The translations under genes and the position numbers were made by a program. A DNA stretch of 30,342 nt, taken from a virus. The stretch is taken from the IMG/VR virus record IMGVR_UViG_3300007509_000039, positions 1 through 30,342 of that record. One strand, 5' to 3'. Shown one piece after another: positions 24,222 to 28,854 of the stretch (position 1 is its first letter; every line of letters begins with the position of its first letter). Below the pieces are notes generated by a model. That model saw only the letters and a list, made by a program, of their open reading frames with translations. It was not told the DNA's origin and ran no database searches.

Positions 24222-24245
24222 AAGTTGAATTCAATTCAACCTAAG
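24222..24245. repeat. Palindromic operator-like repeat, copy 1
   Basis: GTTGAATT-C-AATTCAAC (24224-24240) is a perfect 8-bp inverted repeat with one central base, inside a 24-bp direct repeat shared with 27005-27028. It lies between the divergent hsp20 and VWA-gene promoters and is followed 40 bases later by the -35 box of the VWA gene, exactly as in copy 2. Confidence 0.85.
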
Positions 24246-24280
24246 GTGAATATTTTTCGAGAAAAAAGATGGAAAAGTCC

Positions 24281-24309
24281 TTGACATTTGTCCGAAACTA
24301 GTGTAAGCT
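24281..24309 (+). promoter_or_regulatory. Sigma70-type promoter of the VWA/metallopeptidase gene
   Basis: TTGACA (24281-24286), 17-bp spacer, TAAGCT (24304-24309) as a poor -10. The perfect -35 with a weak -10 suggests regulation, perhaps through the palindrome 40 bases upstream. The 40 bases between palindrome and -35 match those of copy 2 at 29 of 40 positions, including AAAAGATGGAA and TCC just before -35. Confidence 0.7.
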
Positions 24310-24341
24310 GTACATATATGATGAAAAAGGGTGATAAAAAT

Positions 24342-26741
24342 ATGAGTAAATTTGAGTTCAATAAAGAAGCAAAATCATATCTTGCAAAATTACTTGCTAC
24401 TGAAAATCTTACAGTAGAACACAGAAAAGTAAAAACTGCATATTTTGATTTAGAAAAAAGATTACTTGTCGTTCCTATTTGGAAAGAGATGAATGTTGAT
24501 ATTTTAGATTTACTTCTTGCCCACGAAATTGGTCACGCTCTTTACACTCCTCAAGATGAGTGGAAAGAAGCTATTGACAAAAAGATTCCTCATTCATTTT
24601 TGAATGTTGTTGAGGATGCTCGAATTGAAAAACTAATTAAAAGAAAATATCCAGGATTATCTCAATCGTTTATTAAAGGTTACAGAGATTTAATCGCTAA
24701 TGATTTTTTCAAAACTGCTGATAAAGATGTCAATGAAATGTTATTGATTGACCGATTGAATATGCATTTTAAATCTAGTCATGTTGAATCCACTATCGAA
24801 TTTAATGATGATGTTGAATTAGAGTTTGTTGACCGAATGGCGAATGTTGAAACATTTGCTGAAGTTGAAGTTCTTGCTAAAGATTTGGCAGAATATTGTA
24901 AAGGTGAATCTGAATTGAAAAGTTTGGATGACCACGATTTTGAATCTATTTTTGGTGATGATGGTGAAGATAATACCGAAGGCGACGCTGATGATGGCGA
25001 CAACAACGGCAACGGCGACGCTGATAAGAATGACGGCGACGGTGAAGAATCTGATGAAAATTCAAATTCAGGTTCAAGTAAAGATGGTGAAGAAGGTGAT
25101 GAAGAAGGTAAAAATGATGAATTTACTGATTCAAGTGGCGACCAATTTGATACATCAAATGACGGTGTTGCCCCAGGTGATTGGTATCCATCTTCTGAAA
25201 CAGATGATGCTTGGGAAAACCGAAAGAGTGATTTAATAGATGAAAAATCTAAAGATAATGTTTATTTTCATGTTCACGAATTTAAAAACTTGAATGAATA
25301 TGTATTTGATTACAAACGAGTTTTACAAGATTTTAGAGATAACAAGAATGACCGTGATAACCGACACAGTTATTACAAAGAGGCTTGGGTAGAGTTAGTT
25401 GCTGATTACAAAAAGTTTCAGAAAAAACAAAGTAAGGCAGTTAATTATATGGTCAAAGAATTTGAACTCAAGAAGGCCGCAACTGCTCATAGTCGTTCAA
25501 TGCAGGCAAACTCTGGCGTTGTTGACCCACTTAAATTACATAGTTACAAATTCAATGATGATATTTTCAAAAGATTGACAGTTACTCCTGATGGCAAAAA
25601 TCACGGATTGATGATGTTTATAGATTGGTCAGGAAGTATGTGCGATAAACTTGAAGCAACAATTCACCAGTTAATGAACCTAACAATGTTTTGTAGAAAA
25701 GTTCAAATACCTTTTGAAGTTTATGCTTTCAGTAATAACACAAGCTATAACAGAGTTTGGGTTGAAGGCAAAGATGAAAAACAGAGAATATATCCTAATG
25801 TAGATTATCAAAACGGCGATATAACAATTGATAGGCAACTTACATTGCTGAATTTAATTTCTTCAAAAATGTCTGCTAAAGAATATGAAGAAGGTATGAC
25901 TAATTTATATTTCGTTTCGATAAAATATGGATATGACCCTTATTCATATCGTAGAAGAAATTATGATTATGAAGCTGCAAAGGCAGAACAATGGAAAGGT
26001 GATTTAATGGGTATACCGTTGGGATACAACCTTAGTTCTACTCCATTAAATGATTCAATAATGGCTGCAATGAAGATGGTTCCCGCTTTTAAGAGAAAAT
26101 ATAATATTGATAAAATGAATACTGTATTTTTAACTGATGGATGCTCAGATGGTGGTGAAAAAATTGTTGTTACGGATTCAAAAGAAATTGATGATGGTAC
26201 GGTAGAGAGTTCCAAAAGTGGTTGGTGGGGTAGAAGAAGTGGTCAAGAAGGATTGCATTTTAAAGATTTTAATTCTTGGCAAGTTAATAAACTAATGACC
26301 GACAGACTTACTAAAAAGACCTTTAAAGTTGGTGATAATCGGGACGGATTAACTGATGCTTTGTTAAAGATTTTGAAATTACGAACTGGTTCTAAAGTTC
26401 TTGGGTTCTATGTTGCTGAAAAAACTACTATTGACGCTGGAACTTTAAACAGATATTTTCCAGAGAATAATTATTATGCTGAACCTGGTGTTAAACTTTA
26501 TGATAGAAAAAAAGTTAAGGCTGAATTCAGAAAAAACAAATGTTTAGTTGTTACAGAAAAAACAGGATATGATGAACTTTATCTCCTTGCTGGGGGTAAT
26601 ATGAAAGTTTTAGATGGTGAAATGGCGACACCATCTGAAAATGCTAAAAAGGGTGAAATAAAAAGATTGTTTGCTGGTTCTCTAAAGGCCAACAAATCAA
26701 GTCGAGTTGTTCTAAACAAGTTTATTTCAAAAATCGCCTAA
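24342..26741 (+). CDS. Zinc-metallopeptidase/VWA protein (CobT-like), partner of a MoxR AAA ATPase
   Basis: 799 residues from the ATG at 24342, which has an AAAGGG Shine-Dalgarno; a longer frame from a TTG at 24288 overlaps the promoter and is rejected. The N-terminus carries 'HEIGH' (61-65) and a following 'NVVEDARIE' (88-96), the arrangement of gluzincin-type metallopeptidases (HExxH plus a downstream Glu). Residues about 200-300 are an extremely acidic Asp/Glu/Gly/Asn linker. The C-terminal third is a VWA domain with MIDAS 'DWSGSM' (428-433) and 'FLTDGC'. This mix, next to a MoxR ATPase, resembles the VWA/metallopeptidase family found with MoxR proteins in bacteria. Phage homologues are usually labelled CobT-like, but a vitamin B12 role is not supported here. 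Confidence 0.85.
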   Translation: MSKFEFNKEAKSYLAKLLATENLTVEHRKVKTAYFDLEKRLLVVPIWKEMNVDILDLLLAHEIGHALYTPQDEWKEAIDKKIPHSFLNVVEDARIEKLIKRKYPGLSQSFIKGYRDLIANDFFKTADKDVNEMLLIDRLNMHFKSSHVESTIEFNDDVELEFVDRMANVETFAEVEVLAKDLAEYCKGESELKSLDDHDFESIFGDDGEDNTEGDADDGDNNGNGDADKNDGDGEESDENSNSGSSKDGEEGDEEGKNDEFTDSSGDQFDTSNDGVAPGDWYPSSETDDAWENRKSDLIDEKSKDNVYFHVHEFKNLNEYVFDYKRVLQDFRDNKNDRDNRHSYYKEAWVELVADYKKFQKKQSKAVNYMVKEFELKKAATAHSRSMQANSGVVDPLKLHSYKFNDDIFKRLTVTPDGKNHGLMMFIDWSGSMCDKLEATIHQLMNLTMFCRKVQIPFEVYAFSNNTSYNRVWVEGKDEKQRIYPNVDYQNGDITIDRQLTLLNLISSKMSAKEYEEGMTNLYFVSIKYGYDPYSYRRRNYDYEAAKAEQWKGDLMGIPLGYNLSSTPLNDSIMAAMKMVPAFKRKYNIDKMNTVFLTDGCSDGGEKIVVTDSKEIDDGTVESSKSGWWGRRSGQEGLHFKDFNSWQVNKLMTDRLTKKTFKVGDNRDGLTDALLKILKLRTGSKVLGFYVAEKTTIDAGTLNRYFPENNYYAEPGVKLYDRKKVKAEFRKNKCLVVTEKTGYDELYLLAGGNMKVLDGEMATPSENAKKGEIKRLFAGSLKANKSSRVVLNKFISKIA

Positions 26742-26742
26742 A

Positions 26743-27006
26743 ATGGGAAAAGTTATGAAAATGGAAGATATAAAGTTAAACCCACGCCAAGAACGATTTG
26801 TTAAATTGGCAAATGACGAGGGTTTTACTAACAAAATTTCTCGAAAAGATATTGTTATTTTACAGGCTAAATATGGTATTAAAAAACCCACTTGGTTGAT
26901 GAAAAATACTATTTACCGATATTCTAGAGGAGTTTATAAATTGCCTTCTTTATTGTCGGTAGAGGAACATATTCTGAATATGGTTAAATCTTATGGTGAA
27001 GATTAA
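26743..27006 (+). CDS. Small stand-alone copy of the AAA gene's N-terminal domain
   Basis: 87 residues, or 83 if the second ATG at 26755 is used, which has a better upstream purine stretch. Residues about 44-68 ('KYGIKKPTWLMKNTIYRYSR', then 'GVYKLP') closely parallel residues about 32-56 of the AAA protein at 27142 ('NPSWLKNEKYKVSRGVYSLP'). It looks like a small helical/winged domain ending in an Arg-Gly-Val-Tyr-(K/S)-Leu-Pro strand. It sits one base after the VWA gene and immediately before the second palindrome. It may compete with or guide assembly of the ATPase, or bind nucleic acid; function is unknown. Confidence 0.8.
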   Translation: MGKVMKMEDIKLNPRQERFVKLANDEGFTNKISRKDIVILQAKYGIKKPTWLMKNTIYRYSRGVYKLPSLLSVEEHILNMVKSYGED

Positions 27007-27028
27007 GTTGAATTCAATTCAACCTAAG
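27005..27028. repeat. Palindromic operator-like repeat, copy 2
   Basis: The same 24 bases as 24222-24245, with the perfect palindrome GTTGAATTCAATTCAAC at 27007-27023. It starts at the stop codon of the small gene and lies exactly 40 bases before the -35 box of the AAA gene. Confidence 0.85.
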
Positions 27029-27063
27029 TTGTCCATTTTTCATCCGAAAAGATGGAATAATCC

Positions 27064-27092
27064 TTGACTTTGAGATGAAAAGAGAGTAAAAT
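27064..27092 (+). promoter_or_regulatory. Sigma70-type promoter of the MoxR-type AAA gene
   Basis: TTGACT (27064-27069), 17-bp spacer, TAAAAT (27087-27092): one mismatch in each hexamer. Predicted +1 about 27099 leaves a 43-base leader with AAAGGA before the ATG at 27142. Confidence 0.85.
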
Positions 27093-27141
27093 AGGACTTG
27101 AAAGATTGAGAAATACTAATTACATTATGAAAGGAAAAAAT

Positions 27142-28341
27142 ATGAAAAATTTAAATGCGACACAAACCGAACAAGTAGAAGCTTTGTTCAAACATTATGG
27201 ACGAACTGAACTCCATCGTTCTGAAATTAACGATTTTGTCAAGTCTGGCAAAATCAAAAATCCAAGTTGGTTAAAAAACGAAAAATATAAAGTTTCTCGT
27301 GGAGTTTATTCATTGCCGATTGAGGGTAATGATTTCTCACCAACACTTACTGATGTTCCACTAGTTGAAGAAACTCCAAAAAATGAAACTGTCAATCAGG
27401 CCGCTTTTGTTGTTTCAAGTTTAGTCGGCAACATTGTTCCTGAAAAAGACCCAGTTTTTGTTCCTTGGGGATATTTTAGAGATATTAAAAAGATTGTTAC
27501 TTCAAAACAATTTTATCCAATATTCGTTACCGGTCTTTCTGGTAATGGTAAAACTATGAATGTTCAACAGGCTTGCGCTCTGGCAAAACGAGAGTGTATT
27601 CGAGTTAATATTACGATTGAAACTGATGAAGATGATTTGCTTGGTGGATATCGATTGCAAGACGGTCAAACTGTCTGGCAGAACGGACCGGTTATCGAGG
27701 CAATGGAACGAGGTGCTCTATTGTTGCTTGACGAAATTGACCTTGCTTCAAATAAGATTATGTGTCTACAACCAATCCTTGAAGGCAATGGAGTTTTTCT
27801 GAAAAAGATTAACCGATTTGTTAAACCTGCTAAAGGGTTCAATGTGATTGCTACTGCTAACACAAAAGGTCAAGGTTCTGATGATGGTAAGTTTATCGGA
27901 ACTAACATTCTGAATGAGGCGTTCCTTGAACGATTCCCAATTACTATCGAACAGGCTTATCCTTCAAATAAGATTGAAAATAAAATCTTAATGAATGTAA
28001 TGTCCGACAAAGGACTTGCTTCTGCTGTTGATAGTGCGTTTGCTAAAGATTTAGTTACTTGGGCAGATATAATCCGTAAAACTTTTTATGAAGGCGGAGT
28101 TGACGAATTGATTTCAACTCGCCGTTTAGTTCATATCGTTGAGGCATTTTCAATTTTCAAAAACAAAATGAAGGCAATTGAAATGTGTACTAACCGATTT
28201 GATTTGGATACTAAAACTTCGTTTTTAGATTTATACACCAAGATTGATGGTGGCGAAGATGTTTCAAGTTGGTCAAGTTCAGGCGATTTAGAACCAGAAG
28301 TTGAATCCGATGATGATGAGGACGGTAATGTGAATTACTAA
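27142..28341 (+). CDS. MoxR-type AAA+ ATPase (CobS-like)
   Basis: 399 residues from the ATG at 27142 (AAAGGA Shine-Dalgarno); a TTG at 27106 is also in frame but gives a poor start. Residues 1-60 form a small N-terminal domain shared with the 26743 gene. Walker A 'GLSGNGKT' is at 131-138, Walker B 'ALLLLDEIDLAS' near 192-203, sensor 1 'VIATANTKG' near 236, and the arginine-finger region 'LNEAFLERF' near 255; the C-terminal tail is acidic. Marine T4-like phages commonly carry this gene as 'cobS'. MoxR ATPases usually act with a VWA-domain partner, supplied here by the 24342 gene, so a remodelling or chaperone role is more likely than cobalt chelation. Confidence 0.9.
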   Translation: MKNLNATQTEQVEALFKHYGRTELHRSEINDFVKSGKIKNPSWLKNEKYKVSRGVYSLPIEGNDFSPTLTDVPLVEETPKNETVNQAAFVVSSLVGNIVPEKDPVFVPWGYFRDIKKIVTSKQFYPIFVTGLSGNGKTMNVQQACALAKRECIRVNITIETDEDDLLGGYRLQDGQTVWQNGPVIEAMERGALLLLDEIDLASNKIMCLQPILEGNGVFLKKINRFVKPAKGFNVIATANTKGQGSDDGKFIGTNILNEAFLERFPITIEQAYPSNKIENKILMNVMSDKGLASAVDSAFAKDLVTWADIIRKTFYEGGVDELISTRRLVHIVEAFSIFKNKMKAIEMCTNRFDLDTKTSFLDLYTKIDGGEDVSSWSSSGDLEPEVESDDDEDGNVNY

Positions 28342-28392: not shown

Positions 28393-28402
28393 ACATATAT
28401 GC

Positions 28403-28431
28403 TTGACAGAACCAACAAAATAGAGTATAAT
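28403..28431 (+). promoter_or_regulatory. Consensus sigma70-type promoter upstream of the winged-helix-like gene
   Basis: TTGACA (28403-28408), 17-bp spacer, TATAAT (28426-28431). Predicted +1 about 28438, six bases before the first strand of a candidate pseudoknot. Confidence 0.92.
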
Positions 28432-28515: not shown

Positions 28516-28854
28516 ATGGCATATAAAAGGCTAACGAAAAAACAAAAGGTATTAAATCTTTTGGCGAAAGGAAGACCAGTAACATGGACATCCTTGAGAA
28601 CAAGGTTTGATTTGACATCACCACGAGCAATGATTGACCAATTGCGAACTGAAGGACATATGGTGTATATTAACACAACACCAACTGGCACTACATATCG
28701 TATGGGCAGACCAACTAAATCAATTATCGCTGCTGGTGTTGATAAAGTATTTTATTTTGGTAAAGATGAAAAGACTACCAATCTAAACGAAATTGTTGCC
28801 GCTGGTATCGAATCTTTATACGGCACTCAAAAATACGCTTATTCTAACCAATAA
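28516..28854 (+). CDS. Small winged-helix-like DNA-binding protein
   Basis: 112 residues, basic N-terminal half. 'KKQKVLNLLAKGRPVTWTSL' plus 'RTRFDLTSPRAMIDQLRTEG' and 'HMVYINTTPTGTTYRMG' read as helix, helix, recognition helix and a two-strand wing: a plausible winged helix-turn-helix domain. The C-terminal half ('SIIAAGVDKVFYFGKDEKT', 'EIVAAGIESLYG') is a second small domain. A transcriptional regulator, possibly of early genes or of its own unusual leader, is inferred. A strong AAGGAG lies 7 bases before the ATG. The next 159 bases contain no gene but a structured region. Confidence 0.8.
   Translation: MAYKRLTKKQKVLNLLAKGRPVTWTSLRTRFDLTSPRAMIDQLRTEGHMVYINTTPTGTTYRMGRPTKSIIAAGVDKVFYFGKDEKTTNLNEIVAAGIESLYGTQKYAYSNQ

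Follow-up and report, generated by a model that had tools for sequence, protein, structure and literature searches.

The window analyzed here is the complete 30,342-base IMG/VR record IMGVR_UViG_3300007509_000039, a fragment of the genome of an uncultured marine T4-like phage. It contains a gene for a VWA protein with a predicted metallopeptidase domain (24342..26741, + strand, 799 amino acids) and, downstream of it, a gene for a MoxR-type AAA+ ATPase with an N-terminal winged-helix-like domain (27142..28341, + strand, 399 amino acids), between which a gene for a small winged-helix-like protein is located (26743..27006, + strand, 87 amino acids). On balance, we favor the view that the VWA protein and the ATPase form a two-protein remodelling machine and that both of their promoters are under the control of one regulator, which is probably encoded by the phage and most likely acts as an activator. 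From the sequence, we infer that the VWA/AAA pair is co-regulated, whereby one protein would bind both copies of a palindromic operator. The VWA protein itself is best read not as a subunit of a chelatase but as a distant CobT relative, which would have kept a metallopeptidase site.

Each of the two genes is preceded by an identical block of 24 base pairs (bp), AAGTTGAATTCAATTCAACCTAAG, at 24222..24245 and 27005..27028 (both + strand). The block contains a perfect 8+1+8 palindrome, GTTGAATT-C-AATTCAAC, at 24224-24240 and 27007-27023, respectively, and these two copies are the sole perfect 8+1+8 inverted repeats of the window. Shuffling of the window yielded a mean of 0.95 such repeats, which were of unrelated sequence, and the number of shared exact 24-mers expected by chance is 2e-5. 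The distance from the block to the -35 box is exactly 40 bp at both genes, and 29 of the 40 positions of this stretch match. Thus, the duplicated block, its palindrome, and the spacing described in the earlier note were all re-found. The likeness extends over an 88-bp unit that includes the promoter and is 76% identical between both copies. Both promoters are sigma70-like with 17-bp spacers, the VWA promoter at 24281..24309 (+ strand; -35 box TTGACA at 24281-24286, -10 box TAAGCT at 24304-24309) and the AAA promoter at 27064..27092 (+ strand; -35 box TTGACT at 27064-27069, -10 box TAAAAT at 27087-27092). By eye, no late box of the T4 type was recognized. The stop codon of the small winged-helix-like open reading frame overlaps the second operator block.

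The same element occurs in relatives of the phage. A scan for copies of the palindrome that have TTGAC 35-48 bp behind them covered 2.9 million viral contigs; the exact spacing of the window was found in 15 of about 45 distinct matches and was the dominant one. The aligned matches define an operator, referred to here as operator A, which reads AAGTTGAATT-N-AATTCAAC-NN-AAGTTGA and thus consists of three half-sites, the third of which is located 21 bp from the first. In the window, the third half-site is degenerate at block 1 (AAGGTGA, 24243-24249) and reads AAGTTGT at block 2 (27026-27032). Operator A is present before the VWA gene in the window and in the related locus L005, and before the AAA gene in the window and in loci L004, L005, L016, and L162, with the spacing to the promoter kept before the VWA gene of L005 and before the AAA genes of all four loci. 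The palindrome and its 40-bp spacing, for which a search in relatives had been proposed, hence recur before one or both of the genes in close relatives. Operator A is not private to the VWA/AAA pair in the wider phage group. It also lies before an early-type small-gene cluster in L100, L106, L107, L143, and L184, as well as before a DUF6267 gene, a nuclease-like gene, and others. At two further places (L203:2013-2260 and L283:2829, the latter on the - strand), operator A promoters are followed by a Fur-box-like sequence, GAATGAGAATCATTC.

A second scan required the palindrome to be followed by TATAAT at 37-67 bp; both scans demanded a perfect palindrome. The distance to TATAAT was 43, 52-53, or 63-64 bp in 20 of the 22 operators with a third half-site, the other two being degenerate matches, and it was spread for palindromes that have no third half-site. 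The steps between the spacing classes are near 10.5 bp, which is about one helical turn. For the palindrome centre, this corresponds to approximately 64, 73, or 84 bp upstream of the presumed start site, distances from which class I activators such as CRP are known to act. The helically phased spacing of operator A is therefore suggestive of a class I activator-like arrangement, with the reservation that the sequences are related and few of the promoter families independent. As in CRP-type class I promoters, a palindromic site lies upstream of the -35 box at distances that differ by about one helical turn, whereas the phage system has neither a CRP-like protein nor a CRP-like site sequence.

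The best evidence for co-regulation is that one inverted repeat is paired with both genes in two clades, and that the repeats of the two clades differ in sequence. In the second clade (VWA proteins 40-55% identical), the repeat GTGTTGYA-N4-TRCAACAC is located before both genes, 68 bp before the -35 box of the VWA gene and 53-57 bp before that of the AAA gene. Three contigs of 38, 19.5, and 19 kilobases (kb) carry two strict matches to this repeat and no others, one at the VWA gene and one at the AAA gene. A function of these repeats as terminators was considered and rejected, as no T-run follows them and several loci have a distinct G-rich terminator ahead of them. The earlier note had taken the duplicated block as direct proof that one regulator is likely to control both genes. 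A common regulator is an inference, which the second clade strengthens; in L004, however, operator A is found before the AAA gene and is absent before the VWA gene. In a third clade (L035:6307, L039:5900, and L043:5898), a conserved element, AAAATGGAAAA-GCGCAGAAAATAAGGG, is present before the AAA promoter, and in L106 the same element lies downstream of operator A.

The regulator would probably be phage-encoded, since no host operator was recognized: a search with the three-half-site pattern across 85,000 species genomes yielded no related operator at a bacterial promoter. The idea of a host regulon was rejected, as the nine matches (Gemmatimonadota, Rickettsiales, an rplK leader, and others) on inspection looked like coding sequence or unrelated motifs. 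Within the locus, the nearest candidate for the regulator is the small winged-helix-like protein, which was identified by hhalign as a paralogue of the AAA N-terminal domain (probability 99.2, E 6e-20). Its structural model has a predicted local distance difference test score (pLDDT) of about 90 for residues 11-70 and shows a winged-helix-like order of elements. It is this order of secondary structure that gives the protein its name, since Foldseek gave no confident PDB fold match. Closer relatives have the small paralogue, which is missing in cyanophages, pelagiphages, and more distant contigs. In L069:3468-3740 and L071:7242-7496, it sits after the AAA gene and not before it. Where the small gene is lacking, the AAA start is usually located about 70-100 bp past the VWA stop in an operon-like manner; where it is present, the AAA gene is under its own promoter. 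An AbiEi-type identity of the xRGxYxLP domain was considered, but was not supported by Pfam. Another regulator candidate is the HTH_39 winged-helix protein encoded at 28516-28854, which has homologues in 67 fetched loci and a conserved place before gp45. In L005 (5490-5882), a stand-alone sigma-70 region-4 protein of 131 amino acids (PF04545, E 4.5e-18) is encoded; its gene immediately precedes the VWA gene, and operator A stands at the head of the transcription unit. A homologue of this protein was found in neither the window nor the other independent loci.

Several observations weigh against a common activator encoded by the phage. Besides the missing site in L004, the phages HTVC008M, Mosig, P-SSM2, and S-PM2 have no operator A at all, and a 61-kb contig fragment (G133) carries operator A and lacks both the small winged-helix protein and the HTH_39 protein. 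The winged-helix sequence does not clearly co-vary with the operator type, and the failure of Foldseek to place the small protein also has to be counted here. The spacing classes, finally, amount to few independent promoter families and come from searches in which a perfect palindrome was required.

It could also be that the locus is autoregulated: as the product accumulates, both promoters would be repressed through binding of the palindromes, either by the small winged-helix-like protein or by the N-terminal domain of the ATPase itself. The gene of the small protein sits between the two operators, its product is paralogous to that N-terminal domain, and a pair of shared inverted repeats was observed in no locus without it. 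However, the operators lie some 84 bp ahead of the presumed start and do not overlap the promoter, the helical spacing classes suit activation better, and the operator is also found before unrelated genes, among others on the 61-kb contig that has no small gene. We thus regard autoregulation as rather unlikely. A regulator might not be involved at all if the unit represents a promoter module that was spread by recombination duplication and kept as a strong promoter for the host sigma70, the palindrome being carried along. The likeness of the 88-bp units and the recurrence of similar modules in related phages would fit such an origin, which is nevertheless improbable, as L005 (VWA protein 67% identical) keeps the palindrome and the exact spacing despite changed flanks, the second clade has a different inverted repeat at both genes, and the palindrome is also found with weak -35 boxes at other genes.

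The VWA protein was assigned to phrog_459, which is labelled "peptidase" (E 3e-202). A Shine-Dalgarno-like sequence, AAAGGGTG, precedes its ATG at 24342. With this start, HEIGH, a predicted zinc-binding motif, corresponds to residues 61-65 (24522..24536, + strand), EDARIE, which together with N88 marks the likely third zinc ligand helix, to residues 91-96 (24603..24629 including N88, + strand), and DWSGSM to residues 428-433, so that the three motifs previously assigned to the protein are indeed present. The residues H61, E62, H65, N88, E91, D92, R94, and I95 (EDxRI) are invariant in 37/37 aligned homologues, and so are the MIDAS residues D428, S430, S432, T567, and D599 (DxSxS-T-D; 25623..26138, + strand). 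HExxH was found in 48/48 homologues. Of the outcomes by which the earlier note would have been refuted, neither a loss of the palindrome in relatives nor a lack of HExxH in the homologues was thus observed. The AlphaFold model consists of a HEIGH helix (52-68), an EDARIE helix (84-102), a disordered acidic linker of low complexity at about residues 201-280 (24942..25181, + strand; pLDDT <50 at 195-279), and a VWA fold, in this order. As modelled, the layout of the HEIGH and EDARIE helices is the gluzincin arrangement. The top PDB structure matches of the VWA part are the NorQ-bound NorD and the MIDAS domain of midasin, with modest scores (TM 0.61 on the target for the midasin fold). Pfam and PDB sequence searches with the VWA protein yielded no domain, and DUF2201_N, which was sought as a cellular relative, gave one sub-threshold match. 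HExxH-VWA homologues are also encoded by IncC conjugative plasmids and IncFIB phage-like plasmids (L231:2878-4674, L230:2965-6404), and in the IncFIB phage-like plasmid the gene adjoins an AAA ATPase gene.

The ATPase belongs to phrog_249, which is labelled CobS/porphyrin biosynthesis (E 1e-120). It matches AAA_5 with 67 bits and CbbQ_C above the cut-off, and its Walker A (GLSGNGKT, 131-138) and Walker B (194-198) motifs are invariant in 25 homologues. In the PDB, it resembles midasin (best score, E 7e-45 over repeats), CobS, and NorQ.

The relationship to cobalt chelatase was analyzed from both sides of the pair. The ATPase reaches 69.3 bits against the CobS equivalog TIGR01650, the cut-off of which is 558.6. 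The CobT family PF06213 has zero matches in the contig and one among the 37 homologues, at E 0.079, and CobN (PF02514) is absent from four complete phage relatives. In cellular CobT, HExxH is absent in 16/16 sequences, while an EQARVE helix, the counterpart of EDARIE, is kept in nearly all of them. Direct hhalign comparison of the phage family with CobT is weak (E 0.008 for the N-domain, E 0.003 for the VWA domain). However, proteins from RHEph10, Gordonia phage UBSmoodge, an IncFIB phage-like plasmid, and an IncC plasmid retain HExxH and ED..IE, and the N-domain profile of these four mobile-element proteins aligns with the phage family at E 1e-14 (probability 98) and with CobT at E 6e-6 (probability 85), both being pairwise E-values. 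The kinship between the phage protein and CobT becomes credible only through this bridge. The simplest reading of these alignments is that the two are distant relatives, of which the phage line would have kept the metallopeptidase site and CobT would have lost it.

Liu et al. 2021 (PMC8651126) read the pair as viral CobST and considered the "peptidase" label a mistake, so that the phage proteins would act as cobaltochelatase subunits that recruit host CobN and raise the cobalamin output. Such a role would agree with the layout of N-terminal domain, acidic linker, and VWA domain shared with CobT, with the bridge to the CobT N-domain, and with the residual CobS score, but we regard it as very improbable, because that score is far under the equivalog cut-off with midasin as the best PDB match, PF06213 is unmatched, CobN is missing in the four complete genomes, and the phages keep HExxH and the ED motif invariant where all 16 CobT sequences have lost HExxH. 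Against it also counts that SAR11 hosts are not known for de novo cobalamin synthesis. A proteolytic remodelling machine is suggested instead by three findings: the HExxH/ED and MIDAS residues are invariant, true CobT has lost the HExxH motif, and CobN is missing. The claim that the locus is a peptidase/VWA plus MoxR module, and not convincingly a cobalt chelatase, is hence supported.

A MoxR and metallopeptidase-vWA pair has been described in group 2.2 jumbo phages (ASV44729.1/ASV44728.2) with a proposed role in virion assembly and processing (Iyer et al. 2021, PMC7824862). By description, it is alike in that a MoxR ATPase gene adjoins the gene of a VWA protein whose N-terminal part is a metallopeptidase domain, whereas the locus studied here belongs to marine T4-like phages and has an inserted winged-helix-like paralogue and paired operators. 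Thus, the module is of a known kind, while the paired, changing operators and the inserted paralogue appear to be new; the evidence on the CobT/peptidase conflict is also new. CobS/CobT likewise combines an AAA_5 ATPase with a partner made up of N-domain, acidic linker, and VWA domain, the N-domains being joined by intermediate profiles, but differs in the points given above. NorQ/NorD is an AAA+ protein with a VWA partner that shares the MIDAS signature, whereas the phage locus has no nitric oxide reductase and the HExxH domain of the phage VWA protein is intact. Midasin (Rea1/Mdn1) shares the MIDAS fold and is the best sequence match of the ATPase, but is a single giant chain of eukaryotic ribosome assembly.

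The model for the mechanism is taken from NorQD, an AAA hexamer with a docked VWA domain (PMC9976466). By analogy to NorQD and midasin, the VWA domain would dock on the AAA hexamer and grip an acidic substrate residue with its MIDAS metal. Movement driven by ATP would remodel the substrate, which the predicted zinc domain may then clip, trim, process, or hold. A sequence-specific and probably phage-encoded regulator would bind both operators and keep the two products in step, most likely as an activator bound around -84, which is a class I position and would present the same side of the helix as the other spacings do. Both the sigma70-like promoters and the location amid replication genes speak for early or middle expression. 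The virion would then be no likelier a target than a host protein or a replication/transcription complex. Cyanomyoviruses lack motA, and their mechanism of early and middle transcription has been described as unclear (PMC2984593). Judging from the wider set of operators, the VWA and AAA genes may belong to a small early/middle regulon that replaces the MotA system, which the cyanophage relatives reportedly lack. A wider proposal, which we put forward tentatively as a possibility, is that MotA-less marine T4-like phages control a small early/middle regulon by an operator-binding activator of their own, that this regulon includes a protease-chaperone machine long mistaken for a B12 gene, that the three-half-site operator of the activator is helically phased to the sigma70 -10 box, and that clades have replaced the operator sequence at both genes in parallel.

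Further genes of the window, several of them named by eye, encode terminase, gp18-gp23-like proteins, UvsW, gp55, gp47/46, peptide deformylase, Hsp20, and a gp45-like clamp, in addition to the VWA/AAA locus and HTH_39. The Hsp20 promoter (24215-24170, - strand) and the HTH_39 promoter (28397-28430, + strand) both contain ATATGCTTGACAGAA. Operator block 1 is located about 14 bp upstream of the Hsp20 -35 box, and because of this short distance the divergent Hsp20 promoter could also respond to it. VWA homologues were found in 463 annotated phage records, nearly all from cyanophages and pelagiphages. The VWA and AAA genes adjoin on the same strand wherever both are covered, with small genes intervening in some relatives.

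The cobS gene has repeatedly been counted as a marine viral auxiliary gene for vitamin B12, and its neighbor has been declared a mis-annotated peptidase. Our data suggest that the "vitamin B12 gene" label is wrong, and to read the pair as a remodelling machine would change a body of inference on viral metabolism. The paired operators offer a handle on the control of early and middle transcription in cyanophages and pelagiphages.

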